Shown here: in pieces, positions 3,609-16,417 of the stretch
Position numbering within the stretch: position 1 is the stretch's first letter
Layout of the letters: each line of letters starts with the position of its first letter
Source: a virus
Length of the DNA: 25,997 nucleotides
Reading direction: 5' to 3' (one strand)
IMG/VR virus record: IMGVR_UViG_3300042691_026110
Location: 1-25,997 of that record
Notes under the pieces: generated by a model
Told to the model about the DNA's origin: nothing
Seen by the model: the letters and a program-made list of their open reading frames with translations, nothing else
The model's database searches: none
Made by a program: the position numbers and the translations under genes

Positions 3609-3645
3609 TCGTTCACCAGAGAGTGAGGAGAGAGAGAATCAGAAG

Positions 3646-3716
3646 ATCAGGGTGATGGATTCGAACCATCGCTGCTCGGGTACAAGCCGAGTGTCCTGCC
3701 GTTAAACGAACCCTGA
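3646..3716 (-). tRNA. tRNA-Thr(UGU)
   Basis: A 71-nt cloverleaf reads on the minus strand. The acceptor TCAGGGT pairs with ACCCTGA, with discriminator U. The D arm is GTTT/GGAC with weak G-U pairs, the anticodon stem CTCGG/CCGAG, the loop CTTGTAC giving anticodon TGT (codon ACA), the variable region CAGC, and the T arm GATGG-TTCGAAT-CCATC. CCA is not encoded. It lies between the capsid and DUF2190-like genes on their strand, so it can be cut from the late transcript. The first pair is U-A and the D stem is weak, which is unusual but acceptable. Confidence 0.85.
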
Positions 3717-3763: not shown

Positions 3764-5836
3764 CTACGCCGTGGCCTTCACTGCTCCGCGCTTCTCGACT
3801 GCGGACACGCCGAAGTCGTAGATGCCGCGATAGACCACGCCGAGCTGATTCGGGTCGGTGTCGAAGCTCTGAACCAGCGGGGTTTCCTGCCCGTCGAGGA
3901 ACAGCACTTCCACGACCGCGATATCGTTCGGGTCGGCCAGCAGATACCAGGTTCCCGCCGTGGTCAGGTAGCGGCTGTAGACGTGCTCGAACTTCCCGGC
4001 GTGCGGGTTGTTCTGCCCGGCTGCCGTGGTCGAACCGTTGGTCAACAGCGTGCTGTTGACGATCTGCCACGCGGTGGCCTTGTCGACAGCAGAGGTCACG
4101 AGGTAGCGGGCTTCCGATCCGAGCGGGTTGCCGTCCGGGTCAACCTGTGCATCGAACAGCCCAGAAGCCGTCGAGAGACCGGCCACGGTAAGAGCCGTGC
4201 TGGCCGACAGGTTCGACTTGAACGCGCTGCCCTTCGTGGTCACAGCGGTTGAGCTGAACGTCACGCTGCCAGACAGACAGCCCCAGACACTGGTATTGAG
4301 CGCCAGAGCACCGCCGCGGCCCATCTTCTGGAACAGGCCAGCCAGGGCCCCGGCATCATCGTTCCGCATTTCTTCGCGGGTCATGACCAGGGTGCGACCG
4401 TAGCTGTCGACCTTGTTGGTGTAGGTCTGGTTCCCCAGATCACCCGACTCGATCTTCCCGCTCGGAGCGACCTTCTTGAAGGTCATGTCACCGTGCAGAG
4501 ACACCTTGGTCATGGTCTTGAAGTCGCGAGCCGATCCGACACGGCAGATCGCCCGCCAGTTCTGCTCGACGGCGTTGAAGGCGTTCACCGCCGACTTGTT
4601 GCCGACGTTCGACAGCACGCCGCCGATCTCGGTGGTCGAGAACGCAGCCTTCAGGTTGCGGGCGATTCCGGTTTCGTCCCGCATTCGCTCATCGCAACCG
4701 TTGCGGGCTCCGTAGTGGGCCACAAGTTCGGTGAGCGAGATCCCGCCGCGATACTGCTTGTCGGCAGCTTCGAGGATCTTCTCATCATAGGCTTCGTCGC
4801 GGTTGGCCAGGCCGATGGTGCGAGCGAACGCCGCCTCGATAACCAGGTCGGTCGAGTCGCTGCCGTCGTCCTTCTTGCTGTGGCTCACTTTCGGAGCCGA
4901 CGCCCTCAGGACTGCCAGCTCCGTCTTCTCGGGAGTCCAGCCTTCCTCAATCGCCTTCGCGTTGATCTCGGGAAACTTGGCAGACAGGCGATTGATCGCG
5001 TCGACACGACGAACTTCGTCGCCGCGAACCTTTCGTTCGCTCGCGAGAACGTCGCCCTGAGTGCTGGCCCCGTCATCGCCAGCCGCATCAACAATCGGCT
5101 TCGAGGAAGCCTTCACTTCCTTGCCTTCGTCGCCTTCCTTGGCTTCCAGTGCCTTCCAGTCGGCTTCGAGAGCAGTGAGAGCCCCGGCTTCGAGGGTCTC
5201 AGGATTCAGGTGACGGGCTTCCAGCCATGCCTTGAACTTGGGGTCCACAGAACGATCCTTCGTAACGAAATGTCGCGCTTCGACGGATGCCGACGTCTGG
5301 CTATCCGCACCCATCGCAACGAAACTGACTTCCTTCAGAACGGACTGACGAGCCACGTAGAGGGGCCCTGTGTGAGTCCGGCCATTGACTTGAACGGTTT
5401 CACCAGCGTCGACGAATGACGCCTTCTGAACACCGGCACCAATGCTCACCTGCCACGGGAATGAGTTCTTCCCCGCCGTGATCACGTCTTGAGCGCCTTG
5501 GCTCGGATGCGATTGCACGCCAGTGACCTTGATTGAGCCCGCGTTGATCTCAACGCTGTTCGTGTGCCCGAGTGGGCTGGAGTGCTCAATCAGAACCGGA
5601 ATCGACTTTGCCCGAACCTTCATCCCAGACAGGTCGACAACCACCGGGTGAGGCCAGCCGCTCACAGGGAGCTTTCCCCCGGTGTAGGCTGTCAACTTGA
5701 AGCTTGGCAGCTTTGCTGCATCACCTTCCGCCGCCTGCAGAATCTCAAAGTCATCGCAGCTCTCAGCGGCTTGGAGGCTCTTTTCCCCGTCGATCTGAAG
5801 CTCTTTGGCTGTCTTCTGGATTGTCTTCGGGGGCAT
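3764..5836 (-). CDS. Prohead protease fused to major capsid protein
   Basis: A single 690-residue open frame joins two head functions. Residues ~45-195 look like a prohead (S78/U35-type) protease: His85 in V-L-I-E-H-S-S, Ser131 in W-Q-V-S-I-G-A-G and the end motif L-K-E-V-S-F-V-A-M-G at 167-176. Residues ~200-320 are charged and Glu/Lys/Ala-rich and may act as a scaffold or delta-like region. From ~330 on, the sequence resembles Mu gpT/HK97-fold capsid proteins. Separate genes are more usual, though such fusions are known. No internal start with a strong ribosome site was identified. The ATG at 5836 follows GGTGAAC and lies 74 nt inside the end of the portal gene. Confidence 0.85.
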   Translation of the reverse strand: MPPKTIQKTAKELQIDGEKSLQAAESCDDFEILQAAEGDAAKLPSFKLTAYTGGKLPVSGWPHPVVVDLSGMKVRAKSIPVLIEHSSPLGHTNSVEINAGSIKVTGVQSHPSQGAQDVITAGKNSFPWQVSIGAGVQKASFVDAGETVQVNGRTHTGPLYVARQSVLKEVSFVAMGADSQTSASVEARHFVTKDRSVDPKFKAWLEARHLNPETLEAGALTALEADWKALEAKEGDEGKEVKASSKPIVDAAGDDGASTQGDVLASERKVRGDEVRRVDAINRLSAKFPEINAKAIEEGWTPEKTELAVLRASAPKVSHSKKDDGSDSTDLVIEAAFARTIGLANRDEAYDEKILEAADKQYRGGISLTELVAHYGARNGCDERMRDETGIARNLKAAFSTTEIGGVLSNVGNKSAVNAFNAVEQNWRAICRVGSARDFKTMTKVSLHGDMTFKKVAPSGKIESGDLGNQTYTNKVDSYGRTLVMTREEMRNDDAGALAGLFQKMGRGGALALNTSVWGCLSGSVTFSSTAVTTKGSAFKSNLSASTALTVAGLSTASGLFDAQVDPDGNPLGSEARYLVTSAVDKATAWQIVNSTLLTNGSTTAAGQNNPHAGKFEHVYSRYLTTAGTWYLLADPNDIAVVEVLFLDGQETPLVQSFDTDPNQLGVVYRGIYDFGVSAVEKRGAVKATA

Positions 5837-7148
5837 TGTTCACCGTGATTTGTGACTGACTGTCGAACTTGATCTCGAACTCTCTTTCGAGTTCGGCCAT
5901 CCTTTTCAGCTCTTTGGCTCGCTGGACCATCTGGGTTTCCCAGTCGAGACCACGCTTTGAGTATTCTTCAGCCCATGTGCTCATGTGATTCGTGAGCCGC
6001 ATGGCTTGTGCCGAAGCTTCCTTCAGCGGGTCAACCGGTGGAGGGGCATCCCAGTAGCACTTGATCGGAGGTGGCGTGCGGTCGAGCCCGCGAAGCAGAG
6101 CCCACTCTTCCCAGAACCAGCCGAACACCCGCTGAGTGATTCGCTCGAAGACGTCCTGCTCAACACTGATGGCAACGAAGAACGTCTGATGATCGAGCCG
6201 ACCACTTGCGAAGTTGTAAGCCGAAGAGTCCCCGAGCATCAGATTGGCGGGAACGTTCAGGCACCGGCCAATCTCAGAGAGAATCTCTCGCTTGAACTCG
6301 GGGTAAGTCGTGGTCGGTTGCTTGGGGTCAATCTGACCCCAGGCGTAACCCTTGGGAAGAATGATCCCGGCCCCGCGTGGAACTTCGATCTTGTCGTATG
6401 TCGCCGGGTCTTCGTCAGCGTCTTCGTCGGTCGGGTTGCTGTTCGACTGGATCACACCAGCCGGACGGGCAGCACTCTCGGCACAGTTGAGGACTGAGAG
6501 CGTGTAGTTTCGGAGCTGGGCGAACAGCGGGAGAGCGGGAGCGACTTCCGGGATCCCCCGGAGCTGGCCAGGTCGGTCGGCCCGGAAGTAGTGAATCACC
6601 TGCGAAGCTTCGACTGTGATCGACTTCCAGCCGATCTCGTCCCGGATTTCGTAGCTGACCGGCTTCCCGCTCGCGTCAACCTTGATTCCGTCCGCTCCAT
6701 CCTGGCCGGTGATTCGATCACACTCAACGGGAACCAGCGTCAAGCTCACGCCATCGCGAGCCTCGAACGATCGGACGAGGAACCCTTCACCAGACTCGTA
6801 CCGAGCGAACCGCAACTGACGGAGCTTTTCAGCGAATCGGTCGTTGGCCATCCACTCCGCGAAAGCCTGCTCGGCTTCCTGATCGTCACCCAAGATCTGG
6901 ACGCGAGGCCCAGTGCCGATGGTGAAGTTGCACAGCGTGTGGCCTACGCCGTTGGCGTAGCTGTTGTTTCGGACCTCGTAGCGGGCTCGATCCCGGTGAA
7001 CCTTGCGGTTACCGAGAGTCGTGAGCATCGCCGGCGTTTCGGCTGTTGCTCGACCCCAGTGATTCCGCGTCTGGTCGTCGTCGCCGATTGCGTCATATCC
7101 GCCGCTCGCTGCGGAGAAGAAGCCAGCGATGCGAGACCAGAGAGACAA
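5763..7148 (-). CDS. Portal protein (lambda gpB-like family)
   Basis: A 461-residue protein of typical lambda-family portal length and pattern. The N-terminus has R-N-H-W-G-R-A, then the region around R-N-N-S-Y-A-N-G-V-G-H-T, G-T-G-P-R-V-Q, E-W-A/F-A-E-W-M, the R-x-(D/E)-G-x-S-L-x-L-V-P-V-E-x-D-R motif, V-I-H-Y-F-R-A-D-R-P-G-Q-x-R-G-(I/V)-P, and Y-P-E-F-K-R-E-I-L-S-E-I-G-R-C-L-N-V-P. The portal forms the dodecameric DNA channel at the capsid vertex. The start is TTG at 7148 with AAGGA about 9 nt upstream. The C-terminal tail overlaps the capsid gene by 74 nt. Unusually, large terminase is not upstream but about 9 kb away. Confidence 0.92.
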   Translation of the reverse strand: MSLWSRIAGFFSAASGGYDAIGDDDQTRNHWGRATAETPAMLTTLGNRKVHRDRARYEVRNNSYANGVGHTLCNFTIGTGPRVQILGDDQEAEQAFAEWMANDRFAEKLRQLRFARYESGEGFLVRSFEARDGVSLTLVPVECDRITGQDGADGIKVDASGKPVSYEIRDEIGWKSITVEASQVIHYFRADRPGQLRGIPEVAPALPLFAQLRNYTLSVLNCAESAARPAGVIQSNSNPTDEDADEDPATYDKIEVPRGAGIILPKGYAWGQIDPKQPTTTYPEFKREILSEIGRCLNVPANLMLGDSSAYNFASGRLDHQTFFVAISVEQDVFERITQRVFGWFWEEWALLRGLDRTPPPIKCYWDAPPPVDPLKEASAQAMRLTNHMSTWAEEYSKRGLDWETQMVQRAKELKRMAELEREFEIKFDSQSQITVNNAPEDNPEDSQRASDRRGKEPPSR

Positions 7149-7458: not shown

Positions 7459-7464
7459 CCAAGA

Positions 7465-7794
7465 TCATGCCGCCGACAACTTCAGTTCATCTGCAATCCG
7501 CTCTCGCGGCGTTCTGGCTTCGCGGTCGCTCAGGGTGTTGACGCTGCGATCTGACTGACGATCAGGGAAGGCATGAATGCCACGCCGACCGTCTTCGTCA
7601 GCCGGGAGATCAGAGCAGTCCGTAGCGACGAACTCGCGAGGCTGACGGCTTCGCTTCCTGGTCACGAGCTTCTCAACTTCCGATTCGTCGAACCGGTTTC
7701 GATCAACCTCGCGAAGTCTCCCCTTGCCTCGCAAGTGGATCACGTCGGAGATCGAGCATCCAAGTCGTTCAGCAGTCTCGTCAATCGTGAGCAT
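7465..7794 (-). CDS. HTH (excisionase/MerR-like) DNA-binding protein at head of late operon
   Basis: A 109-residue protein. Residues 1-48 form a HTH_17-type domain (T-I-D-E-T-A-E-R-L-G-C-S-I-S-D-V-I, then a basic K-G-R-L-R-E-V-D wing and a F-D-E-S-E-V-E-K-L helix). The rest is charged, disorder-like and Arg/Asp-rich. The ATG at 7794 follows AGAGGG. It is the first gene of the left minus-strand operon and faces the 1 kb control region, so it may act there as a regulator. The place before portal also allows a small-terminase-like DNA-recognition role. Neither can be decided from sequence. Confidence 0.65.
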   Translation of the reverse strand: MLTIDETAERLGCSISDVIHLRGKGRLREVDRNRFDESEVEKLVTRKRSRQPREFVATDCSDLPADEDGRRGIHAFPDRQSDRSVNTLSDREARTPRERIADELKLSAA

Positions 7795-8123
7795 TTCGCA
7801 CCCTCTCTATTCATAAGTATCCGTTTTGCGAGAGTCGCTCATAAGGTGCAATCGACACAAAGCCAGCATGGCAAAAGAATTGCAAGATCAATGTTATGAA
7901 ATCTGAGGCCGTCGCGATTCTGGGAAATTTTCCAAGATTCTCAGAAAAGAAAGATTCTGCAATACTTGACAGTTCCCCTGTGGGGGTTTTACTTATAGTA
8001 CGCGCCCGGAGAACCTATTCGCTATGCTGTTGACTTTCATAAATCATTCGAGTTTAGGAATAGCAAATCGCTCTAAGTCCAAGCTGCACGCCAAGATTGA
8101 GTCACATTGTTATGATAGCATTT

Positions 8124-8152
8124 TTGACCATGCTTTTGCTTAGTTATACAAT
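8124..8152 (+). promoter_or_regulatory. Sigma70-like promoter
   Basis: TTGACC, a 17-nt spacer and TACAAT, each hexamer matching five of six consensus bases. The start site would be near 8159, giving a long leader through the inverted repeat to the first gene at 8797. Confidence 0.6.
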
Positions 8153-8218
8153 AGCTTTGAATGTTTCGTAATGCAATTCGCTTGCAGTATCGCGATTGTG
8201 CTATGTGGATCAGGTGTC

Positions 8219-8378
8219 ATTTTCGAGGTCTTATACACGCACAGACAGTGGGGAGATCACACACACACACACACACGCACGTATAAGTTCATACTCATAT
8301 AAATATAAATATATATATAGATATTATACGCATGTAGATCATTACCCACTGTGTATTCGTGTATAAGACCTCGAAAAT
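8219..8378. repeat. 34-bp inverted repeat enclosing (CA)n and AT-rich tracts
   Basis: Arms at 8219-8252 and 8345-8378 are reverse complements with 21 perfect outer pairs (starting ATTTTCGAGGTC), then 3 mismatches in the inner 13. The 92-nt centre has a 19-nt CA tract (8258-8276), a TA/ATA-rich tract (about 8297-8327) and GATC on both sides. The layout is that of a large cruciform/hairpin, an origin-like structure or a tiny terminal-inverted-repeat element. No coding sequence is present inside. Confidence 0.85.
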
Positions 8379-8532
8379 AGAATTTTTCTCTATAGCAAAA
8401 GATCGGCACAGCAAGGTGTTTTGCACAATAAATGCCATTTGCTATTAACAAAACACAACAACAGGCACTTGCTTTTCTGAAATATAACAAATAGGCGTAG
8501 GCTGTTCTGGACAAACGGCTTATGCCGCTTGT

Positions 8533-8576
8533 GCTATGTATAATGTATTTTGTTGCCTGAAATACAACAACATAGC
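8533..8576. repeat. Two-step inverted repeat (hairpin)
   Basis: GCTATGT and TGTATTT on the left pair with AAATACA and ACATAGC on the right, around a 9-nt loop (tgttgcctg), with a 4/3-nt internal loop between the two 7-bp stems. It may be an RNA hairpin in the leader or an operator-like dyad. No T-run follows, so it is not a typical terminator. Confidence 0.6.
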
Positions 8577-8622
8577 AACAGCATGGGCTACTGTTCCTCA
8601 GGTGCTGTCAATCCACTTATCA

Positions 8623-8666
8623 CGCACTTTCGCTGCACTTTTCCTGCACTTTTCCTGCACTTTTCA
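8623..8666. repeat. Four 11-bp tandem repeats (iteron-like)
   Basis: Units TGCACTTTTCC at 8634-8644 and 8645-8655 are identical, 8656-8666 differs in its last base, and 8623-8633 (CGCACTTTCGC) is a degenerate copy. An 11-bp period is about one helical turn, as in iterons or tandem operators that place protein on one DNA face. They lie about 130 bp before the first plus-strand gene. Confidence 0.75.
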
Positions 8667-8796
8667 TTTTCGGCCTCGATTCACCGCTACCTTTCCGCAA
8701 CGCAATCGAACTCCTGGCTTCGCGTTTGACGCCTTCGATTGCTGGCGTGGCTCTCCGGTCACGTTTCCGATCTGAGTGGCAGGAAGGCGGTGTTTT

Positions 8797-9399
8797 GTGG
8801 CTGTGGTGAAGATTCAAGCGGATGGCGTTCCAACCGAGCTGGCCTACCGTGTGTGCAACGTGGTGAACGATACAACCGGGCATGTCATGTTCGATCCAGT
8901 GATTCAGACGTTCGAGGTTGATGGAGACGAGAATCAGGAGTTTGCTATTCGCAATTTCGAACTTCTGGTGAAGGAGATTCCGAAGATCGGATCGCTCGCG
9001 GATGAAGAGTCACGGAGGGTTGCTGATTTTCGCTGGGGCAAGTATTGCGCTGAGGCATTTATCGATTCTGTCAAGAAAACGTTCGGCCCCGGCGATTGGA
9101 TCGTTTACGGAAACCACTGCCTGACTGTCGACGCGAAGAAATCCGTGATCACTGCTGTGATGCAGATGGTTGATGCCTTTGATGCTGGGATGGAGTTTGG
9201 CAAGTCGGACAACAAAGAGCAGTCGTTCCTGCGAATCCTGAAGAGTGGAATCACCCGCCATCGCGACATCCTTCCCCGCATGGGTATGCGAGCCAGTGAG
9301 TTTGCCAAGCTCGTCAGGCGGATGATTCGCGATCAGAAGATTGAAACCAGCAAGGAAGGCCGGGGCGTCGTCTATGCCATCGCTGAGGTGGCATCGTGA
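8797..9399 (+). CDS. Unknown protein with C-terminal winged-helix-like segment
   Basis: About 200 residues. The N-terminal half has beta-like strands (V-F-D-P-V-I-Q-T-F-E-V-D-G-D) and no recognised domain. The C-terminal ~55 residues look like a winged helix: R-H-R-D-I-L-P-R-M, A-S-E-F-A-K-L-V-R-R-M-I, then K-E-G-R-G-V-V-Y-A-I. The same end pattern occurs in the next gene, so the two are likely paralogous there. The GTG at 8797 is chosen for its AGGAAGG 9 nt upstream; the GTG at 8776 is possible. It is the first gene of the plus cluster, after the iteron-like repeats, so a DNA-binding replication or regulatory role is plausible but unproven. Confidence 0.7.
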   Translation: MAVVKIQADGVPTELAYRVCNVVNDTTGHVMFDPVIQTFEVDGDENQEFAIRNFELLVKEIPKIGSLADEESRRVADFRWGKYCAEAFIDSVKKTFGPGDWIVYGNHCLTVDAKKSVITAVMQMVDAFDAGMEFGKSDNKEQSFLRILKSGITRHRDILPRMGMRASEFAKLVRRMIRDQKIETSKEGRGVVYAIAEVAS

Positions 9400-9773
9400 A
9401 GATCCTCAGGTACAAGACGATTGACGGGCGTGAATTTTGCTTCGTCGCCAACGCCGTTGAGAGAATCACCGACACGCCAGATGGTCCTAGGGTCAAGCTG
9501 AAGTGGGATCGATTCGCAAGGCTTCTCGATGAAGTGACAACCGCTGAAGTTGCTCGCGATGTGAAGCAAAGCATGATCGACAAGCCTGACGAAGTTCAGC
9601 TGAAGATCACTGTGATGATCAACAAGGGTTACGCGAAACATCGTGACCTCTTCTGCTCAATGAGAAGTTCGGCATCGCCTGACGAGTTCCGGACGGCAGT
9701 CGATCATCTCGTCAAGTCAGGAACAATCCTGGCCCACAAGGAAGGCCGGGGAACTGTCTACTCACTGAAGTGA
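9396..9773 (+). CDS. Unknown protein with winged-helix-like C-terminus (paralogous segment)
   Basis: A 125-residue protein. The N-terminal part (K-I-L-R-Y-K-T-I-D-G-R-E-F-C-F) is strand-rich, with no family recognised. The C-terminal part repeats the pattern of the preceding gene: K-H-R-D-L-F, a Ser/Met turn, E-F-R-T-A-V-D-H-L-V, then K-E-G-R-G-T-V-Y-S-L. The GTG start overlaps the preceding stop as GTGA, with GAGG upstream, so the two are translated together. Tandem, coupled and sharing a domain, they may act as a pair on the same site or DNA structure. Confidence 0.72.
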   Translation: MKILRYKTIDGREFCFVANAVERITDTPDGPRVKLKWDRFARLLDEVTTAEVARDVKQSMIDKPDEVQLKITVMINKGYAKHRDLFCSMRSSASPDEFRTAVDHLVKSGTILAHKEGRGTVYSLK

Positions 9774-9784
9774 GCTGAGTGATC

Positions 9785-9976
9785 ATGGCGACTTTGGGAA
9801 CACCGTACGAAGATGGCGGCAAGTGGTATCAGCGATGGTATCCGGTCGAAGGCGACATCAGGCCGGAGGGGCTTGAGCTGAAGACTCACGGCGGTTCGTG
9901 GGTTCCGTCTCCATCTGGTCTCACGGGGTTCACCGTCACCGAGTACGTGGCCGAATTGAAGGAGATAGTCGAATGA
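9785..9976 (+). CDS. Small Trp/Gly-rich hypothetical protein
   Basis: 63 residues, with two Trp-Tyr/Tyr-Gln-Arg-Trp-Tyr clusters near residue 13-20, a H-G-G-S-W turn and an acidic C-terminal helix (E-Y-V-A-E-L-K-E-I-V-E). No domain recognised. It lies 11 nt after the upstream stop, and the next gene overlaps its stop as ATGA. A GTG two codons upstream (9779) is an alternative start. Ribosome-site support is weak; the tight spacing favours a real gene. Confidence 0.55.
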   Translation: MATLGTPYEDGGKWYQRWYPVEGDIRPEGLELKTHGGSWVPSPSGLTGFTVTEYVAELKEIVE

Positions 9977-10284
9977 CCTCCAAGTACGAAAACACCGTCG
10001 TTACCGCTCTGCGCCAAGGCTGGTACATCGAAGAGATCCAGCAAGAGCTGCCGTCGATCGAGGCGATGACCATCCACAACATCGCCAAGCGTCACAACAT
10101 GAAGGCCCGCCACTGCCCGAAGGGCTTCATGCGACTCAAGGCAATGGCAACCACTGAAGGCAAACTCGGGGCTCCTGCAGCTGCTGCCGAATTCCACATC
10201 ACAACAGCCACAGTGAGAGCGAGTGTCTCCCGATATTGGCGACTCGAAAACGAGAGGAAGCAATGTCTCAGATCATCAATGTGA
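9973..10284 (+). CDS. Small protein with two HTH-like segments
   Basis: 103 residues. Residues ~14-46 (G-W-Y-I-E-E-I-Q-Q-E-L, then I-H-N-I-A-K-R-H-N-M-K-A-R) resemble a HTH of the phage 'which x(L) goes with x(A/K)R' kind. A second segment (A-A-A-A-E-F-H-I-T-T-A-T-V-R-A-S-V-S-R-Y-W near 66-88) has the HTH shape too. AAGGAG lies 8 nt before the ATG, the best ribosome site in this operon. The gene ends 22 nt inside the next one. A DNA-binding regulator is likely; its target is unknown. Confidence 0.65.
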   Translation: MTSKYENTVVTALRQGWYIEEIQQELPSIEAMTIHNIAKRHNMKARHCPKGFMRLKAMATTEGKLGAPAAAAEFHITTATVRASVSRYWRLENERKQCLRSSM

Positions 10285-11132
10285 ACGTGACGCCCGCTTC
10301 GTACGGGCTTGACATCGAAGGCATCAAGGCAGCGGTGGGCCAGGTTGCCGAGCTGACCATTGCCGGAGTCGATGACAAGGAAGGATTTGAGCGAGTCCGC
10401 CGTGCCCGCCTCGATCTCAAGAAGGTAAGATGCGAGATCGAGAAGAAACGCAAGGAGCTCAAGGCCGATGCTGTCGAGTTCGGCAGGCGGGTTGACGCCG
10501 CGGCAAAGGAACTCACCGCCCTTGTTGAGCCGACAGAGCAGCTCTTGCTCGGTCGAGAGGAATCGATCGAGAAGGAGATTGCAGCCATCGCAGCCCGCAA
10601 GCTGCAGGGCAGGAAGGATCGATTGACGGAAGCAGGGGCCCTGATCTTCCCCGGCCTCGACAAGATCGCAGACGATGAGTTTGAAGAACTGGTAACCGCC
10701 GCCCAGCTGGCCCACCAGAAGCGTCAGCAGCAAGAGGCCGAGGCTGCACAGGCCCGCAAACTCGAAGAGGAACGGCTCGCCAAGGAACGCGAAGAGCTGG
10801 CCCGGCAACGGAAGCAGCAAGAGGCCGAACGGATTCAAATGTTGGCCCGTATTGAGGCACAGCAGAAGGAACTGGAACTCAATCGAGCCGTGCCATTGCC
10901 TCCAGAAATCGAGCAAATCGCACCAGCTGGAGCTGCAACCACATTCCGCGAAGACACCGACCAGAAGAAACTCCAATCCGTCGTTTCAGCCATGATGTCG
11001 ATCGAGATCCCGGCCTTCTCGATCCCAGGCGTGCAGCAGAACCTCATTCGCGAAATCAAGGAGATGGCGAACTACATCCAGACGACTTACACCAACAAAT
11101 ATTTCGAGCGGCTCGAAGGGGAGGGCAAGTGA
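10263..11132 (+). CDS. Coiled-coil protein, DUF1351-like
   Basis: 289 residues. Residues ~25-95 have the pattern I-A-G-V-D-D-K-E-G-F-E-R-V-R-R-A-R-L-D-L-K-K, then R-x-x-I-E-K-K-R-K-E-L-K-A-D-A, seen in DUF1351-like phage proteins. A long Glu/Arg/Gln/Ala coiled coil follows (about 145-215), then a Pro linker and a C-terminal helical domain. In other phages this family lies next to single-strand annealing recombinase genes, but no RecT, Erf or Sak relative is adjacent here. The ATG at 10263 follows GAGG and overlaps the preceding gene by 22 bp. Confidence 0.7.
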   Translation: MSQIINVNVTPASYGLDIEGIKAAVGQVAELTIAGVDDKEGFERVRRARLDLKKVRCEIEKKRKELKADAVEFGRRVDAAAKELTALVEPTEQLLLGREESIEKEIAAIAARKLQGRKDRLTEAGALIFPGLDKIADDEFEELVTAAQLAHQKRQQQEAEAAQARKLEEERLAKEREELARQRKQQEAERIQMLARIEAQQKELELNRAVPLPPEIEQIAPAGAATTFREDTDQKKLQSVVSAMMSIEIPAFSIPGVQQNLIREIKEMANYIQTTYTNKYFERLEGEGK

Positions 11133-11536
11133 TGCTGATTGATCCCCAAGCCTCGATACCGCTGCCCGCTGGAGCCTGTCGAATGACCCCTTCGCTCATA
11201 GACCTCGTGAAACTCAAGTCGTCACTTCCAAGATCGCCTTCAGTTCAACTGATCGGATTCGAGGGGAAGTTGTATGTTCTCCAGAAACCGACATTTACCG
11301 TTCCGAAGTTCATCGAGCCGAGCTGGGGAGAAGTTCCACGAGCCTTTCGCAATGTGCGACCGATTCACTCCCGAAAACGTGTCAGCCCCTGTGCGATGAA
11401 ACGACGGGCAATGATCATGAAAGAACGAGCCGACTACGCCAAACGAGCAGATGACTTGATGTTCCGCGTGATGAGCGTCATGGAATCGAAGATCATGGCA
11501 ACTGGTAAAGAGTTCGCGATCATGGGGGCATTCTGA
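11132..11536 (+). CDS. Unknown basic protein
   Basis: 134 residues, basic, with a Pro-rich middle (F-T-V-P-K-F-I-E-P-S-W-G-E-V-P) and a long C-terminal helix rich in Met, Lys and Arg (M-K-R-R-A-M-I-M-K-E-R-A-D-Y-A-K-R). No family recognised. GGAGG lies ahead of the start, and the ATG shares one base with the upstream stop (TGATG). It shares a base with the next gene as well. The GTG at 11129 is possible. The C-terminal helix could bind nucleic acid, which is only a guess. Confidence 0.6.
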   Translation: MLIDPQASIPLPAGACRMTPSLIDLVKLKSSLPRSPSVQLIGFEGKLYVLQKPTFTVPKFIEPSWGEVPRAFRNVRPIHSRKRVSPCAMKRRAMIMKERADYAKRADDLMFRVMSVMESKIMATGKEFAIMGAF

Positions 11537-12342
11537 TGATCTCCATCCCCGCCCTCGGTCTCTCGAAGAAAGTCACAGAACGCGCCGCTCGCGTGTTTCG
11601 CGAGTGTGGATTTCAGACCGAGAAAGACCTCTCCCGCGACAAGTTCGAAGCCTGGCTCGGGAAGCTGACCAGCGAGGCCACTCGCACCAGCTACCGCTCT
11701 GCCGTGTCGTCCGTGGGGGCCCGGATGGTTTCGGCGGGACTGCTCCGCAGAAACCCGTTCTCGAACAAGGATCGACAGCTTGCCGGGTCGAAGGCCGCGG
11801 TTCCTCTGCCAGGCGATCTCGACTCACTCGCCGAACGCTTCGTCACAGCCACTGGCAAAGACCGGCAGAAGATCCGGACAGCGATTCGCAAGACGGGTAT
11901 CACGTCGGCCAGTGGGGCTCTCACTGCCAGCCTGACCACTCTCGACAAGCCCCAGCGGCTTTCGTTCCAGGCGTTCCAGCGGTGGCTGGTCGAGGCCAGG
12001 ATCGTCACTCCCAAGGTGACGGAGTTCGACATCCTGCTCACTCAGTGCCAACAGACATGGCACCACGTGGTCAAGTCTCCATCGCCGCGTGAAGCCTTCC
12101 TGCAGCTCGTCAAAGAGAACCCCATCGTAGCCGCCAGTCGGTCGCCCATTCACCTCTTCGTGAGGTCCGGTGACATCGAGTTCCACCTCACCGCCAAGAG
12201 CCTCCACGATGCCAGCAAACGAGCCGAAGAGGTTCACCTGCACTTTGTCGAGCCCGAGCGGCTGAAGAAGCCGGAGGAAGGCTTCCTTTACTGGCCTTTC
12301 GACGTTCAACGTGACGAAGAAATTCTTCACAATCTCGCTTGA
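11536..12342 (+). CDS. Protein with integrase core-binding-like N-domain and no catalytic domain
   Basis: 268 residues. The region ~28-75 (D-L-S-R-D-K-F-E-A-W-L, then T-R-T-S-Y-R-S-A-V-S-S-V-G-A, ending L-R-R-N-P-F) resembles the helical core-binding domain of tyrosine recombinases; the true integrase at 13715 has a similar ...L-I-Q-R-N-P-F end. The rest has no GLR, HxLR or catalytic Tyr box, so no recombinase activity is expected. The C-terminal part (L-F-V-R-S-G-D-I-E-F-H-L) looks like a separate alpha/beta domain. The ATG at 11536 overlaps the upstream stop (TGATG). It could bind recombination DNA, modulate the integrase or be a relic; none is shown. Confidence 0.65.
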   Translation: MISIPALGLSKKVTERAARVFRECGFQTEKDLSRDKFEAWLGKLTSEATRTSYRSAVSSVGARMVSAGLLRRNPFSNKDRQLAGSKAAVPLPGDLDSLAERFVTATGKDRQKIRTAIRKTGITSASGALTASLTTLDKPQRLSFQAFQRWLVEARIVTPKVTEFDILLTQCQQTWHHVVKSPSPREAFLQLVKENPIVAASRSPIHLFVRSGDIEFHLTAKSLHDASKRAEEVHLHFVEPERLKKPEEGFLYWPFDVQRDEEILHNLA

Positions 12343-12393
12343 CCAGTGTACCCACAGCCACTACTGTACACCCATCCAAGACGGACGAACGAA

Positions 12394-12498
12394 ATGAACA
12401 TCAAACTCACACCGGCCACCGATCCCAGGCTCTGCCTAAAGCTGGCCCACCTGAACCAGCATGCGAATGCCTACCGCTCTCGGTGGAAGGTTCGCTAA
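12394..12498 (+). CDS. Possible 34-residue peptide
   Basis: A short frame encoding a basic peptide (starts M-N-I-K-L-T-P, ends S-R-W-K-V-R), 51 nt after the preceding plus gene. Its ribosome site is weak and it overlaps the end of the minus-strand zinc-ribbon gene by 4 bp. Composition is protein-like, but there is no independent support. Confidence 0.25.
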   Translation: MNIKLTPATDPRLCLKLAHLNQHANAYRSRWKVR

Positions 12499-12698
12499 AG
12501 CAGCCTGCCCTTGCCGCATGCTTGACAGCGAAACGGGCGGAACGGAAGCCATAAAACCGAGTAAAGTAGCCAAGGGATGATGAATAGCCCTCCCGTCAAA
12601 ACGGTGAGCAGGCACCCCATTCCGTTGCTCATGTATCGCTTCTCGTGAAGCGTGTAGCGACCGCAGTACTTGCACCACTTGTGATTCTGCTGAGACAC
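12495..12698 (-). CDS. Small zinc-ribbon membrane protein (lone minus-strand gene)
   Basis: 67 residues: C-K-Y-C-G near the N-terminus, a hydrophobic segment of about 24 residues (G-M-G-C-L-L-T-V-L-T-G-G-L-F-I-I-P-W-L-L), then C-Q-A-C-G near the end. Two Cys pairs flanking a membrane stretch is a pattern seen in small phage and bacterial zinc-ribbon proteins of unknown role. I start it at the GTG at 12698 because GAAGGG lies 7 nt upstream; a TTG at 12734 would add 12 residues. It lies alone on the minus strand inside a plus-strand block, which is typical of a moron or lysogeny-expressed gene; a superinfection or membrane-stress role is a guess. Confidence 0.7.
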   Translation of the reverse strand: MSQQNHKWCKYCGRYTLHEKRYMSNGMGCLLTVLTGGLFIIPWLLYSVLWLPFRPFRCQACGKGRLL

Positions 12699-12771
12699 GG
12701 GTTGGCCCTTCGTGTTGTTGAGGAATTTCCGCAAATGTTCCGGAAAACCATCAAGTTTCTAACGATTCGTG

Positions 12772-12799
12772 TTGACCAGTTCAACCGATTCGCTATTTT
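12772..12799 (+). promoter_or_regulatory. Sigma70-like promoter before hairpin-rich leader
   Basis: TTGACC, a 16-nt spacer and TATTTT. The start would be near 12806, just before the first hairpin at 12809. It could drive a structured RNA or the leader of the excisionase/integrase operon at 13090. Confidence 0.4.
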
Positions 12800-12808
12800 G
12801 ATCCACGG

Positions 12809-13004
12809 CTGCGGCCAGGGACTGGTACCCCTGACCGCAGCAGACCCCCGCAGGAACGGAGGCCCGGACGTGGATTGTTGCTGTATTCGTTGCTTGGCGC
12901 CGCTGCGCCGCGAGGCTTTTCCTCGCCCCCCGCCCGCTTGACCCGCTACGGCATTTTCGTTGATGCCTAAATGCGAAGACCCCCGAACGATTGCCGTCGT
13001 TCGG
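12809..13004 (+). other. Hairpin-rich leader or structured RNA candidate
   Basis: Four dyads lie in 196 nt without a gene. At 12809-12840: CTGCGG+CAGGG pairs with CCCTG+CCGCAG, with one mismatch and an 8-nt loop. At 12896-12909: GGCGC-CGCT-GCGCC. At 12910-12926: GCGAGG-CTTTT-CCTCGC, directly abutting the previous one. At 12983-13004: CCGAACGA-TTGCCG-TCGTTCGG. The stems are GC-rich with short loops, and no T-run follows any of them. The stretch 12699-13089 has no convincing coding sequence. It may be a small RNA or a regulatory leader. Confidence 0.45.
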
Positions 13005-13089
13005 AGGCCATTGAATCGCAGCATCACTCCCAGCCCAGTACCACCCGGTCCAGTCGCGATGACTGCGATCGTAGGGAACCTACACGCAC

Positions 13090-13290
13090 ATGTCAACCGG
13101 AAAATCGAAACTCCCGCTGCATTTGAACGCCATCGTGAGCGATGCCCAGCTCGGTGAATTCCTCGGAATCTCGAACGCTGCAGTTCTCGCCCGCACCCTG
13201 AAGAAAATCCCTCACAAGAAGTTCGGACACACGAAGCTCGTTCGTGTCGAAGACTTCTGGAACAGCCTGGAGGGATCAGGCCATGAGTAA
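13090..13290 (+). CDS. Excisionase-like HTH protein
   Basis: 66 residues. The core has D-A-Q-L-G-E-F-L-G-I-S-N-A-A-V-L-A-R, a basic Lys-rich loop (K-K-I-P-H-K-K-F-G) and a final V-E-D-F-W-N-S-L helix, the shape of a HTH_17/excisionase-like winged helix. AGGGAA lies about 10 nt before the ATG. It opens a four-gene operon ending in the integrase, the common place for a directionality factor. The protein is a good Xis candidate, but the repressor of another promoter is not excluded. Confidence 0.7.
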   Translation: MSTGKSKLPLHLNAIVSDAQLGEFLGISNAAVLARTLKKIPHKKFGHTKLVRVEDFWNSLEGSGHE

Positions 13291-13519
13291 CGAACCATGC
13301 CCCATCACTCCTCAGTTGCTCCAGTCTCTCGGCTTCTACAAAGAGGGATTTACCCGCCCGTGGTTGCTCGACTTGCCCGGCCAGCGGCAGCTCGTGGTTT
13401 TCGAGACAGGTGGGATCTACATCCGGAACGGGATCTCGGGACTCATCGGGTGGGCCAGGACGGAGGCCGCTCTCATCAACCTGGTGCGAGCCGTTCAGGC
13501 TGTTCAGGAGGGCGAGTAA
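13283..13519 (+). CDS. Hypothetical protein in xis-int operon
   Basis: 78 residues, beginning at an ATG that overlaps the xis-like gene by 8 bp with GGAGGG 8 nt upstream. The middle has a beta-like stretch (R-Q-L-V-V-F-E-T-G-G-I-Y-I-R-N-G) and the C-terminal ~20 residues form an Ala/Leu/Val helix. No family recognised. Its position between xis and int candidates suggests a recombination accessory or regulator, which is only inference. Confidence 0.6.
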   Translation: MSNEPCPITPQLLQSLGFYKEGFTRPWLLDLPGQRQLVVFETGGIYIRNGISGLIGWARTEAALINLVRAVQAVQEGE

Positions 13520-13711
13520 ATGAGCATGAGCCGCAACTTCTGGGAAAAGAATTGCCTGATGTTCGCCATCCCGTTCGTCAGCCAGAAGATTGGGCGCTGG
13601 CTGATGCGGTCTTACCGCTACATCACGCAGCTTGAACGCGAGAACAGCGAGCTTCGCGAACAGCTCGCCACCATCAGACGCAAATTCAGACGACTTCAAA
13701 GACGAGAGTGA
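13520..13711 (+). CDS. Small Arg-rich coiled-coil protein before integrase
   Basis: 63 residues. A moderately hydrophobic N-terminal half with Phe/Ile/Val-rich segment (L-M-F-A-I-P-F-V), then a strongly charged coiled coil (L-E-R-E-N-S-E-L-R-E-Q-L, then R-R-K-F-R-R-L-Q-R-R-E). AGGAGGG lies 7 nt before the ATG, which follows the upstream TAA directly. The basic tail could bind DNA. It ends 3 nt before the integrase TTG. Confidence 0.6.
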   Translation: MSMSRNFWEKNCLMFAIPFVSQKIGRWLMRSYRYITQLERENSELREQLATIRRKFRRLQRRE

Positions 13712-13714
13712 ACC

Positions 13715-14818
13715 TTGGCCAGCCTCGAAACCGACTCCAGCAAGCGGCACAAGATCCGTTATCTCGACGCCGCGGGCTCCCGCCAGACGATCTACCTCGG
13801 AACCATGCCCGTGAAGCATGCCCGGCAGATCATGCTCTACGTCGAGGGGTTGCTTTCTGCGAAGCTCTCTGCCACCCAGATGGGCCAGGACGTAGCCCGC
13901 TGGGTTGGAGAACTCACCGGCAAGCTGAGAACCCGCCTGGCCGAATTGGGGCTGATCCACGACGTTGAGACAGTTTCGCTGGGGGCGTTCCTCGATCGGT
14001 ACATTGCCGACCACTCGGGAAAGGACTCGACCAAGACGGTCTGGCGACGTTGCCGGAAGCATCTGCTGGCGTTCTTCAAGCCTGGCAAGCTGATCCACGA
14101 CATCGGGAAGTCCGACGCTGTGAAGTTTCGAGCGTTCCTGATTCGCAAGGGGCTCGCGGACAACACCGTCCGCCGAACGTGCGGAGTGGCGAAGCAGTTC
14201 TTCGAGTATGCCTGCGAAGTCGAGCTGATCCAGAGGAACCCATTCCGGCAACGGTCGATCGTCACGACCACCACGGGGAGCCCCAAAGGCCGGAGAGCCT
14301 ACGTCAGTGAGGCCGACGCCCGGAAGGTGTTGGATGCTTGCCCGGATCAGCAGACGAAGCTCCTCTTCGCGTTGGCCAGGTGGGGAGGTCTTCGCGTCCC
14401 CTCCGAGCCTCTGGCCCTGCGATGGGACGACATCGACTTCGAGGCCCGGCGTATCACCGTCACCGTCCCCAAGCTGGCCCACCTGGAAGGCAAGGCCACA
14501 CGAACGATACCGATCTTCCCCGAGCTGCTGGACCTGCTGACGACAGCCCACAAGCTCCGCGAGAGTGATCGAGTCGTCACCATGGCATTGAGCACCGCGA
14601 AGAACTTCCGCACCAGGTTCACCAGAATCATCCGACGCGCTGGCGTTGACCCGTGGCCCAAGCTGTTCCACACTCTCCGAGCCAGCCGTCAAACCGATCT
14701 CGAAGACCGATTTCCCGCTCACGTCGTGTGCGAGTGGATCGGCAACAGCCCCCGAGTCGCTCGCGAGCACTACCTCACCACCCTCGACCGCCACTTCGAT
14801 GAGGCGACCGGAAAGTGA
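13715..14818 (+). CDS. int: Tyrosine site-specific integrase
   Basis: 367 residues. N-terminal ~1-90 holds a strand-rich arm-binding segment and a helical stretch common in planctomycete integrases; 90-180 is a SAM-like core-binding domain ending R-N-P-F; the catalytic domain has Arg227 in G-G-L-R-V, His319-x-x-Arg322 (F-H-T-L-R), Trp341 in C-E-W-I-G-N-S and the nucleophile Tyr353 in A-R-E-H-Y-L. All key residues are present. It starts with TTG 3 nt after the preceding stop, and the starting A-S-L-E-x-D pattern fits relatives. An attP-like site follows directly. It integrates and, with the xis-like protein, probably excises the phage. Confidence 0.93.
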   Translation: MASLETDSSKRHKIRYLDAAGSRQTIYLGTMPVKHARQIMLYVEGLLSAKLSATQMGQDVARWVGELTGKLRTRLAELGLIHDVETVSLGAFLDRYIADHSGKDSTKTVWRRCRKHLLAFFKPGKLIHDIGKSDAVKFRAFLIRKGLADNTVRRTCGVAKQFFEYACEVELIQRNPFRQRSIVTTTTGSPKGRRAYVSEADARKVLDACPDQQTKLLFALARWGGLRVPSEPLALRWDDIDFEARRITVTVPKLAHLEGKATRTIPIFPELLDLLTTAHKLRESDRVVTMALSTAKNFRTRFTRIIRRAGVDPWPKLFHTLRASRQTDLEDRFPAHVVCEWIGNSPRVAREHYLTTLDRHFDEATGK

Positions 14819-14838
14819 TTGTTCGCTATGATTTCCTT

Positions 14839-14892
14839 CAGCGACTTGCGTCAAAAGTGAGTCGCTAACATTGGCGAAATCCTTCGCCAATG
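14839..14892 (+). terminator. Two hairpins after integrase (terminator-like, no T-run)
   Basis: First AGCGACT pairs with AGTCGCT around 13 nt (14839-14865). Then CATTGGCGAA pairs with TTCGCCAATG around 5 nt (14868-14892), a perfect 10-bp stem. A T-run is missing, so ending transcription by the intrinsic route is doubtful; they may instead be protein sites at the edge of attP. Confidence 0.4.
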
Positions 14893-14903
14893 AATCAGCA
14901 AAA

Positions 14904-15094
14904 TGGTGGCACAGGTGGTGGCAGTGCATAGCCGCGTACACGTGCGTGGAGATGCGTGGAGCCACCATTTCTCAGGAAATGAGGCTTTTTCCATGCCAGA
15001 AGTGGGCGATGAGGGACTCGAACGTGTTTGCGTAATGTGTTGACTTGAAACAGTTTGCGGAATCACCGTTTTGCCGTGGTGGCACCAGTGGTGG
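14904..15094. other. attP-like region with tRNA 3' end core and arm-type repeats
   Basis: On the minus strand, 15023-14998 reads as a tRNA end: T-loop TTCGAGT, T-stem CCCTC, acceptor ATCGCCC and discriminator A (then CTTCT). The T-stem's other half is missing, so only the 3' part is present, as in phage attP sites that restore a tRNA gene. The predicted target tRNA starts GGGCGAT. Around it lie two 18-bp direct repeats, TGGTGGCACAGGTGGTGG (14904-14921) and a copy with two changes (15077-15094), plus GCCACCAT inverted at 14961-14968 and a tandem TGCGTGGAG pair (14943-14951, 14953-14961). They look like integrase arm sites. Confidence 0.7.
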
Positions 15095-15134
15095 TAAATC
15101 TTCGAAAATCTGTTTTCAATCTTTGATTTCCGCA

Positions 15135-15162
15135 TTGACAATCAAACCGCTGCCGATAAGAT
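15135..15162 (+). promoter_or_regulatory. Sigma70-like promoter for the coiled-coil gene cluster
   Basis: TTGACA, 16-nt spacer and TAAGAT. The start would be near 15168, which makes the ATG at 15169 nearly leaderless and favours the ATG at 15214 as the real gene start. Confidence 0.45.
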
Positions 15163-15213
15163 TACACCATGCAACGCGACTCACGCGGGGCGAACGACAC
15201 GAGGACGACGAAC

Positions 15214-15543
15214 ATGGGAGCTGCACAAGAACATCGCGGGAACATGGTCATCCGTCGTCAAGCGGACGATCAGGTGGCTCGCGTGGCACCTTCTGTTGAA
15301 AACAGGCATCTCCGCGAAGTGGTGAAGGAGCGTGACGCTGAGGTGTCATTGCTGAAGTCTGATTTGCAGCGAGCACGAAGGTTGATTTCACTGCTGAGAG
15401 CAGAAAAGGCCGCTTTGCAAGAGCGGAACAAGACTCTGCTCGGTGCAGTGGACCGCATTGAAGAATCAATGCGTGGCGTGCATATCGCCCGGAAAGCGAT
15501 GAACGCGGTCATTGAGATCCAGAAAATAAAGTCTGGTGAGTAA
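15214..15543 (+). CDS. Coiled-coil hypothetical protein
   Basis: 109 residues from the ATG at 15214. The middle (about 25-85) is a long coiled coil with heptad-like Leu/Val (H-L-R-E-V-V-K-E-R-D-A-E-V, then L-L-R-A-E-K-A-A-L-Q-E-R-N-K-T-L-L). The 15-codon extension to the ATG at 15169 is possible, but a promoter places transcription start there. GAGG lies about 9 nt before 15214. No domain is recognised. Confidence 0.6.
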   Translation: MGAAQEHRGNMVIRRQADDQVARVAPSVENRHLREVVKERDAEVSLLKSDLQRARRLISLLRAEKAALQERNKTLLGAVDRIEESMRGVHIARKAMNAVIEIQKIKSGE

Positions 15544-15553
15544 CCCAACCCAC

Positions 15554-15576
15554 GCCCCGGAGATTCGCTCCGGGGC
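15554..15576 (+). terminator. GC-rich intergenic hairpin
   Basis: GCCCCGGAG-ATTCG-CTCCGGGGC is a perfect 9-bp stem with a 5-nt loop between two plus-strand genes. The tail TCTTGC has few T residues, so it may weaken transcription or protect RNA rather than end it. Confidence 0.45.
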
Positions 15577-15594
15577 TCTTGCGAGGAGATGAGT

Positions 15595-15870
15595 GTGACG
15601 AAAACGCAGTTTGAAGCACTGAAAAACGGTACTCCAGTTGTTTGGATGCCGACTCGTGAATACGGTCAACTTAAGATTCTCTCCGACCGACTCCGGTTGA
15701 TTACGTGGGATTCTGGAGAAACCACCGTCTTGCGAGTGTTTCAGTACAAAGTTGTCGACGCAGAGGCAAGAACCATTTGGGATAGCTGGTATGAAGAACT
15801 GGACACGCAAGCGGAGTGGGACGCATGCTGTGAAGATGCCAAGAGAAGGACGAGAAAGGCCACCACGTGA
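15595..15870 (+). CDS. Small hypothetical protein
   Basis: 91 residues, with T-P-V-V-W-M, a strand-rich middle (G-Q-L-K-I-L-S-D-R-L-R-L-I-T-W) and an acidic, Trp-rich C-terminal helix (D-S-W-Y-E-E-L-D-T-Q-A-E-W-D). The GTG at 15595 sits 6 nt after GAGGAG, while the ATG at 15589 directly abuts that site, so the GTG is preferred. No family recognised. The next gene overlaps its stop as GTGA. Confidence 0.55.
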   Translation: MTKTQFEALKNGTPVVWMPTREYGQLKILSDRLRLITWDSGETTVLRVFQYKVVDAEARTIWDSWYEELDTQAEWDACCEDAKRRTRKATT

Positions 15871-16085
15871 AGAAGAAACCAACCCGAGGAGGAGCCCGCG
15901 CCGGAGCTGGCCGTCCCGCTTCAGGCCGGAGACAGGTTACCCTGCGACTGTCTGACGCGACCGTCGAGCGGCTGGACAGGATCGTTCCCGAGCGTCTCGG
16001 GCAGGCGAGAGTGATTGACGCTGCGGTGTCGCAGCTTACCGACGAGCAGATAGCGGCTTTCGCCGATTCCAAACTTCCTCACTGA
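15867..16085 (+). CDS. Possible ribbon-helix-helix DNA-binding protein
   Basis: 72 residues. The N-terminus has the basic G-G-A-R-A-G-A-G-R-P motif found in small phage DNA-associated proteins. Then R-R-Q-V-T-L-R-L-S-D-A-T-V-E-R-L-D-R-I could form the strand-helix start of a ribbon-helix-helix fold, and a second helix follows. The GTG start overlaps the preceding stop (GTGA). Its last ~50 nt overlap the end of the convergent minus-strand zinc-finger gene. A regulatory role is plausible. Confidence 0.6.
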   Translation: MKKKPTRGGARAGAGRPASGRRQVTLRLSDATVERLDRIVPERLGQARVIDAAVSQLTDEQIAAFADSKLPH

Positions 16086-16257
16086 TCCCATAAACCCGCC
16101 TGACAGCGTCCGACACCTTCCGCCGCTCTTCGTCGGTTGTCGAGAGATTCCACTCGATTCGTGAGCGGTCCCCGCACTCGTGAGCGTCTCCCAGGAATCG
16201 AATCGAGGCCCCGCAATGTCGGCACTCGCTAACGTACATGTGACTGTCTGGATTCAC
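16036..16257 (-). CDS. Small zinc-finger-like protein
   Basis: 73 residues. [11 protein letters not shown] near the N-terminus and D-A-H-E-C-G provide Cys/Cys and His/Cys zinc ligands at a fitting distance, followed by a charged helix ([14 protein letters not shown]). The GTG start overlaps the upstream stop (GTGA) with AGGAGG 8 nt upstream, so it is likely translated. It is the last gene of the minus packaging operon and overlaps the end of the plus-strand gene by 50 bp. Confidence 0.65.
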
Positions 16258-16415
16258 GCGAACATCCTCCTTTGACGGAATCCGTTGACTGTTACCTCTT
16301 TTCCCATCGCCTCCATGATTCGACGTTTGGCAATCTCGAAATACTTCGGCTCTTTTTCGATGCCAATAAATCGCCGGTTGAGCTGAACGCAGGCCACGCC
16401 AGTTGTTGGTTCCAT
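16254..16415 (-). pseudogene. C-terminal fragment of an N6/N4 DNA methyltransferase
   Basis: 53 residues. The start, [16 protein letters not shown], then [17 protein letters not shown], closely matches the last part of adenine/N4-cytosine methyltransferases: the final part of the G-S-G-T-T-G-V-A motif I and the following strand. The catalytic (D/N/S)PPY part is missing, so no activity is expected. It starts 3 nt after the terminase stop with a weak site, and its end overlaps the zinc-finger gene. It is either a remnant or a shortened protein kept for another use. Confidence 0.72.
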
Positions 16416-16417
16416 CT

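Follow-up and report, generated by a model that had tools for sequence, protein, structure and literature searches.

A probable lambda pL-like early operon in a fragment of a temperate tailed phage, with a known recombination module predicted beyond its cut end

A seven-gene operon in a fragment of a temperate tailed phage

The virus record IMGVR_UViG_3300042691_026110 (an IMG/VR virus record taken in full, 25,997 bases long and classed as linear, referred to here as the window) is a partial genome, 26 kb, of a temperate tailed phage. At positions 8797 to 12342 it carries a plus-strand operon of seven genes, G1 to G7, for which an earlier note, made from the sequence alone, proposed a recombination or replication system of an unknown kind. 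All seven open reading frames (ORFs) lie where that note placed them and are tiled with start-stop overlaps (GTGA, ATGA, and TGATG), so that its description of the genes as co-translated in appearance was right. The third-position GC content of G1 to G7 (0.59 to 0.75) is like that of the phage's certain genes (0.69 to 0.80). On the plus strand, the longest stretch without a stop spans 324 codons, compared to a mean of 182 and a maximum of 337 in shuffled sequences; because 324 codons fall within the shuffled maximum, ORF length alone is weak evidence for genes. We consider G1 to G7 real because of their tiling and overlaps, the homology of G5, the paralogy of G1 and G2, and the recognized domain of G7.

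The minus strand of the record codes for a head decoration protein, capsid, portal, TerL, a cytosine methylase, a Prim-Pol primase, Dam, and a metallophosphoesterase. On the plus strand, G1 to G7 are followed by X1 to X3, the integrase, and three small genes up to position 16085. The outer 300 bases of the two record ends have no 20-mer in common. The host is probably a member of the Planctomycetota, given the relatives of the integrase, the matches of a putative attachment site core to tRNA-Val genes, and the relatives of TerL, the closest of which are planctomycetal and the others from Proteobacteria and Verrucomicrobia bins.

A known recombination module upstream of the helicase in relatives

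The case for an unknown system was built on the lack of a known annealing recombinase near G5. None of the known annealing families (RecT, Erf, Rad52, Sak3, Sak4, and Gp2.5) is matched by G1 to G7 in Pfam at an E value of ≤1. The argument fails, however, because the record is cut in the helicase gene, the frame of which is open to the right edge, and relatives have DUF669 just beyond this point. In each relative that is readable past the helicase, a known module, comprising DUF669, usually Sak4 (AAA_24), and often RusA, lies directly upstream of the helicase gene. The gene order is Sak4, DUF669, (RusA), and helicase at loci L001/L002, L015, L050, and L102; at L005, DUF669 is likewise upstream of the helicase and is preceded by a gene other than Sak4. 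Since the record stops inside the helicase and the module is upstream of the helicase in relatives, the absence of a recombinase does not follow from the record, and a system of an unknown kind is unsupported. Judging from these relatives, the missing recombinase is most likely encoded immediately beyond the break in the record. The Sak4 protein of HK620 anneals single strands, and its cognate single-stranded DNA-binding protein (SSB), a DUF669 protein, stimulates annealing (PMC5928155).

A prophage in the planctomycete genome G362 (L196) contains capsid, portal, TerL, Prim-Pol, Dam, helicase, RusA-like, DUF669, Sak4, and PDDEXK-like genes, and these adjoin a helix-turn-helix (HTH) gene, an excisionase-like gene, and an integrase; the RusA-like, PDDEXK-like, and excisionase-like labels are based on sequence appearance. 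Its capsid, portal, TerL, helicase, and integrase are 38 to 44% identical to the proteins of the record. No G5-like gene is present within the stretch read, and G5 and the DUF669/Sak4 module are thus not always found together. The same prophage (L213) also has a reverse-transcriptase-like ORF, so called from its sequence appearance, in the tail region (5235-6917) and a TerL match that is split by about 475 bp (15444-15919), perhaps an intervening sequence.

G5 belongs to a phage family found near recombination genes

G5 is a helical coiled-coil protein, with a structure model that is almost all helix and that yields only long-helix matches, without meaning, in the PDB. It is homologous to the L001/L002 protein across a conserved core (pairwise E = 1e-29). 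G5 itself gives weak PHROG matches (E of about 0.002 to 0.003) and its relatives match phrog_16469 and phrog_21091 strongly; by this homology, G5 is assigned to the phage family of the phrog_16469/phrog_21091 relatives. Members were found at 80 viral loci, in three phage records, and in one of 392 planctomycete genomes (L169), and none were found when genome contigs were searched with the G5 alignment. The family members have in common a charged, helical core in which residues R56 to E92 are near-invariant. The earlier note had named G5 DUF1351-like. G5 itself does not match the DUF1351 model PF07083 even at an E value of ≤10, nor does the model appear in its hmmscan list at an E value of ≤1, and what stands of the label is a family tie through the 3 of 63 G5 relatives that match PF07083 (best E = 2e-6). 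We therefore keep DUF1351 only as a distant and indirect tie suggested by these sequence matches.

The gene neighborhoods of the family were counted by clustering all ORFs within 4.5 kb of 74 members. Pfam named the YqaJ, AAA_24, and DUF669 cluster exemplars, and the ERF-like and SSB-like clusters were named by sequence look only. Recombination genes (YqaJ, ERF, Sak4/AAA_24, DUF669, or SSB) were near 53/74 G5-family loci and 0/69 TerL control loci, an imperfect control in that its loci are all relatives of one terminase and have shorter flanks. When only flanks of at least 6 kb were considered, the counts were 38/53 and 0/21, respectively. The neighbors included YqaJ-type nucleases (26 loci), DUF669 (15), AAA_24 (Sak4; 14), and ERF-like genes (9). 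In a published survey of Firmicutes phages, DUF1351 adjoins RecT, Erf, or Sak4 genes, Sak4 is found beside DUF669 and helicase, and a role of DUF1351 like that of Mu Gam-like neighbors was suggested from gene position (PMC8093625).

G7 begins with a core-binding domain

A search of the 392 Planctomycetota genomes with G7 gave eight matches, all inside G7 amino acids 3 to 122 and all in frames that read as tyrosine recombinases. A profile of these eight integrases aligns with G7 amino acids 11 to 79 only (45.6 bits). The structure model of G7 is confident for amino acids 1 to 80, with low confidence past amino acid 81, and compares with the core-binding domains of lambda Int and the Brujita integrase at a Z score of 9.2 and a root mean square deviation of 1.9 to 2.0 over 75 to 76 residues. 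By the model and the alignment, G7 amino acids 1 to 81 have the core-binding (SAM-like) fold of tyrosine recombinases. The core-binding-like and HTH parts reported by the earlier note are accordingly present, the former in G7 and a weak HTH in G4.

The catalytic domain (R...HxxR...Y) was not found: after amino acid 79, the same integrase profile, which is full-length, aligns only one negative-scoring stretch, and the catalytic half has no Pfam match. For the remaining ∼188 amino acids there was no match, no listed family, and no reliable model. The similarity of G7 to the phage's own integrase is not above that of shuffles, so G7 did not arise recently as a partial copy of that enzyme. A core-binding-domain protein without the catalytic part is a modest novelty; MpsB of SGI1 is another lone protein resembling a tyrosine recombinase core-binding domain (PMC6414798).

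The remaining genes of the operon

The C termini of G1 and G2 are paralogous (local score of 83, compared to a maximum of 54 in 1,000 shuffles) and have a winged-helix-like domain in common; the N-terminal part of G1 is unassigned to any family. No relatives of G1 were found in the 392 Planctomycetota genomes at an E value of ≤0.01 (G2, G4, and G6 were left out of the whole-genome searches), and none of G1, G2, or G7 in pattern scans of viral contigs (G4 and G6 were left out of the all-viral-contig scan). In tblastn searches of phage records, G2, G6, and G7 had no matches at an E value of ≤1 and G1 and G4 chance-level matches only (E of 0.6 to 0.8); the operon DNA likewise had no match in phage records. 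Sequence searches of solved structures with G1 and G7 returned nothing significant. G3, compared with family libraries only, has one weak PHROGs match, and neither family libraries nor phage records gave a match to G6. None of G1 to G4, G6, and G7 has a relative at an E value of ≤0.05 in nineteen regions around related planctomycete integrases.

Control region, integrase, and attP-like site

The features flanking the operon are listed in Table 1.

Table 1. Positions of the operon genes and neighboring features in the window
Feature	Coordinates	Strand	Remarks
HTH protein, excisionase/regulator-like	7465-7794	-	Divergent from G1; phrog_66 E = 5.5e-5, phrog_7735 E = 3.3e-4
AT-rich non-coding control region	7795-8796		38% GC at 8001-8500; TTTGCTATT / TGTGCTATGT repeats
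G1, 200 amino acids	8797-9399	+	GTG start after AGGAAGG; in-frame alternative GTG at 8776
G2, 125 amino acids	9396-9773	+	GTGA overlap with G1
G3, 63 amino acids	9785-9976	+	Alternative start GTG at 9779
G4, 103 amino acids	9973-10284	+	ATGA overlap with G3
G5, 289 amino acids	10263-11132	+	22-nt overlap with G4; GAGGAA upstream
G6, 134 amino acids	11132-11536	+	TGATG overlap with G5
G7, 268 amino acids	11536-12342	+	TGATG overlap with G6
79-amino-acid protein	12495-12734	-	Two cysteine pairs and a hydrophobic, membrane-like stretch, from sequence; weak phrog_10322 match
X1, small HTH protein	13090-13290	+	Weak HTH matches only; putative excisionase by position
Tyrosine recombinase (integrase)	13715-14818	+	PF00589 E = 3.4e-10, phrog_1 E = 1.2e-33
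attP-like site	14904-15094		Core 14999-15024; flanked by TGGTGGCAC arm-type repeats at 14904-14921 and 15077-15094
Helicase, C-terminal 184 codons	25441-25997	-	Homologous to helicases of L196, L050, L005, and L102

Where a repressor gene was sought, only the divergent HTH gene, with weak matches to excisionases and regulators, was found. In the control region, an inverted repeat precedes G1, with 34-nt arms (8219-8252 and 8345-8378) that are 91% complementary, the outer 21 nt perfectly so, and a 92-nt spacer that is AT-rich and contains (CA)n. It folds far better than shuffles (z of -7.3), and the arm was not found in other viral contigs. The repeat may be an origin, an operator region, or a small mobile repeat.

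Relatives of the integrase at an E value of ≤1e-20 are present in 50/392 Planctomycetota genomes. The adjacent attP-like core, 180 bp downstream of the integrase, as in the lysogeny module of a temperate phage, matches the 3′ ends of tRNA-Val genes in 6/294 planctomycete genomes with 1 to 2 mismatches. The attP looks intact, which makes it improbable that the record derives from an integrated form trimmed at its att sites. The TerL-portal gap of the record is 9,273 bp and holds the whole lysogeny block (7459-16417); in 56 relatives the gap is 0.3 to 5.6 kb (median of 507 bp), with no integrase between the two genes. No att-type direct repeats above chance were found at the borders of this 9-kb block, which we take to be a relocated lysogeny and early module. 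An integrase block between terminase and portal is an unusual place and a modest novelty. Elsewhere in the record, a tRNA-Thr (TGT) gene (3645-3716, minus strand) lies beside the capsid gene.

Interpretation of the operon and comparison with known systems

We consider it probable that the operon is a lambda pL-like early operon of a temperate tailed phage, probably of Planctomycetota, rather than a new recombination system. G1 to G7 would be the promoter-proximal half of an early ("left") and integration operon, transcribed as a single transcript from the AT-rich control region through G1 to G7 toward the excisionase, integrase, and attP. G1, G2, and G4 may be small DNA-binding regulators, and G5 may be an accessory of phage annealing recombination, at a spot held elsewhere by DUF1351, Mu Gam-like, or gp157 genes. 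For the annealing protein we predict Sak4 (AAA_24), accompanied by a DUF669 SSB and encoded shortly beyond the record's right edge. DNA binding by G7 would occur via its integrase-type core-binding domain, and G7 would have no recombinase activity of its own. The phage head, packaging, and replication genes that surround the operon are consistent with this interpretation.

Several observations weigh against it. The minus-strand gene at 12495 to 12734 breaks the plus-strand run after G7 and before the excisionase-like X1 (the run resumes at 13090 with this HTH gene, followed by the integrase), and X1 has weak HTH matches only. The HTH match of G4 (PF13384, E = 0.001) is also weak, below the family cutoff. 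No promoter signal above chance was detected, and the searches turned up no relative of the operon in its entirety. About 30% of G5-family loci have none of the counted recombination genes, and the nearest relatives of G5 are spread over several module types. The module predicted upstream of the helicase falls outside the record.

A new recombination or annealing system, in which G5 is the accessory and G6/G7 (or G1/G2) an unrecognized annealing protein, would accord with the recombination-associated family of G5, with the place of G6 and G7 directly downstream of G5, where the Cylindrospermopsis phage Cr-LKS3 has a 62-amino-acid gene, a 281-amino-acid gene, and a YqaJ nuclease, and with the lack of known relatives for all of G6 and most of G7. 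We nevertheless regard it as improbable: G7 begins with an integrase core-binding domain rather than an annealing fold, no annealing family is matched in Pfam, comparisons of G1, G6, and G7 with single RecT-like, ERF-like, Sak4, DUF669, YqaJ, and Cr-LKS3 g36 sequences gave nothing clear beyond shuffles, and a known module is predicted beyond the cut end. It also seems doubtful that G7 is a catalytically empty integrase relative with a new domain that acts on phage DNA together with G5 and the small regulators, the operon then being a new kind of accessory module linking recombination and lysogeny control; if it were, such a protein might serve, for example, as an integration/excision switch or as a recombination loading factor.

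The borders of the 9-kb block lack an att-like direct repeat, the one tRNA-Val core, an unused attP, is internal to the block and has genes to its left and right, and related integrases serve whole phages, such as the G362 prophage. These points make it unlikely that the block (G1 to G7 with the integrase) is a separate, satellite-like mobile element nested in the packaging module and served by the operon, despite its own divergent regulator, integrase, and attP-like site and a TerL-portal distance well beyond the median and maximum of the 56 relatives. Small, fast-evolving proteins without relatives in early operons are often anti-defense or host-takeover proteins, and the small, relative-less proteins of the operon fit this pattern. 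That the operon is an accessory one of this kind, unrelated to recombination and containing G5 by chance, is very hard to credit given the recombination genes in G5-family neighborhoods; there was also no useful PADLOC match, though PADLOC covers defense rather than anti-defense proteins.

The lambda pL-like interpretation is in line with the layout of pL-type operons of lambda, which also have a divergent regulator-like gene, early genes with a recombination accessory, and then an excisionase-like HTH gene, integrase, and attP in one direction. The operon described here differs in having no exonuclease or annealing gene, in the interrupting minus-strand gene, and in the location of the block between terminase and portal. 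Cr-LKS3 (OM373202) also contains a member of the G5 family within a long unidirectional operon that heads toward an excisionase, but there a YqaJ nuclease and an SSB follow the G5-family gene within 2 kb, the integrase is on the other strand, and no other window gene is in common. DUF1351 (PF07083) proteins are likewise helical and lie beside genes for single-strand annealing proteins (SSAPs), and some G5 relatives match their model, whereas G5 itself does not and has no adjacent SSAP in the window. MpsB of Salmonella genomic island 1, likened here by its description (PMC6414798), is also a core-binding-like protein without the catalytic part; it acts with MpsA at a conjugative oriT, whereas G7 is in a phage and has 188 amino acids more.

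The operon is thus of an ordinary type. It is the early operon of phages about which little is known, and it has one family-level tie to recombination and one unusual protein, G7. It illustrates that truncation of a contig can hide a known recombination system and let it seem absent. It also adds probable planctomycete phages, in which almost all early genes are uncharacterized, to those that carry a coiled-coil accessory family, and G7 offers a small case in which to study core-binding domains that are put to use apart from a recombinase.

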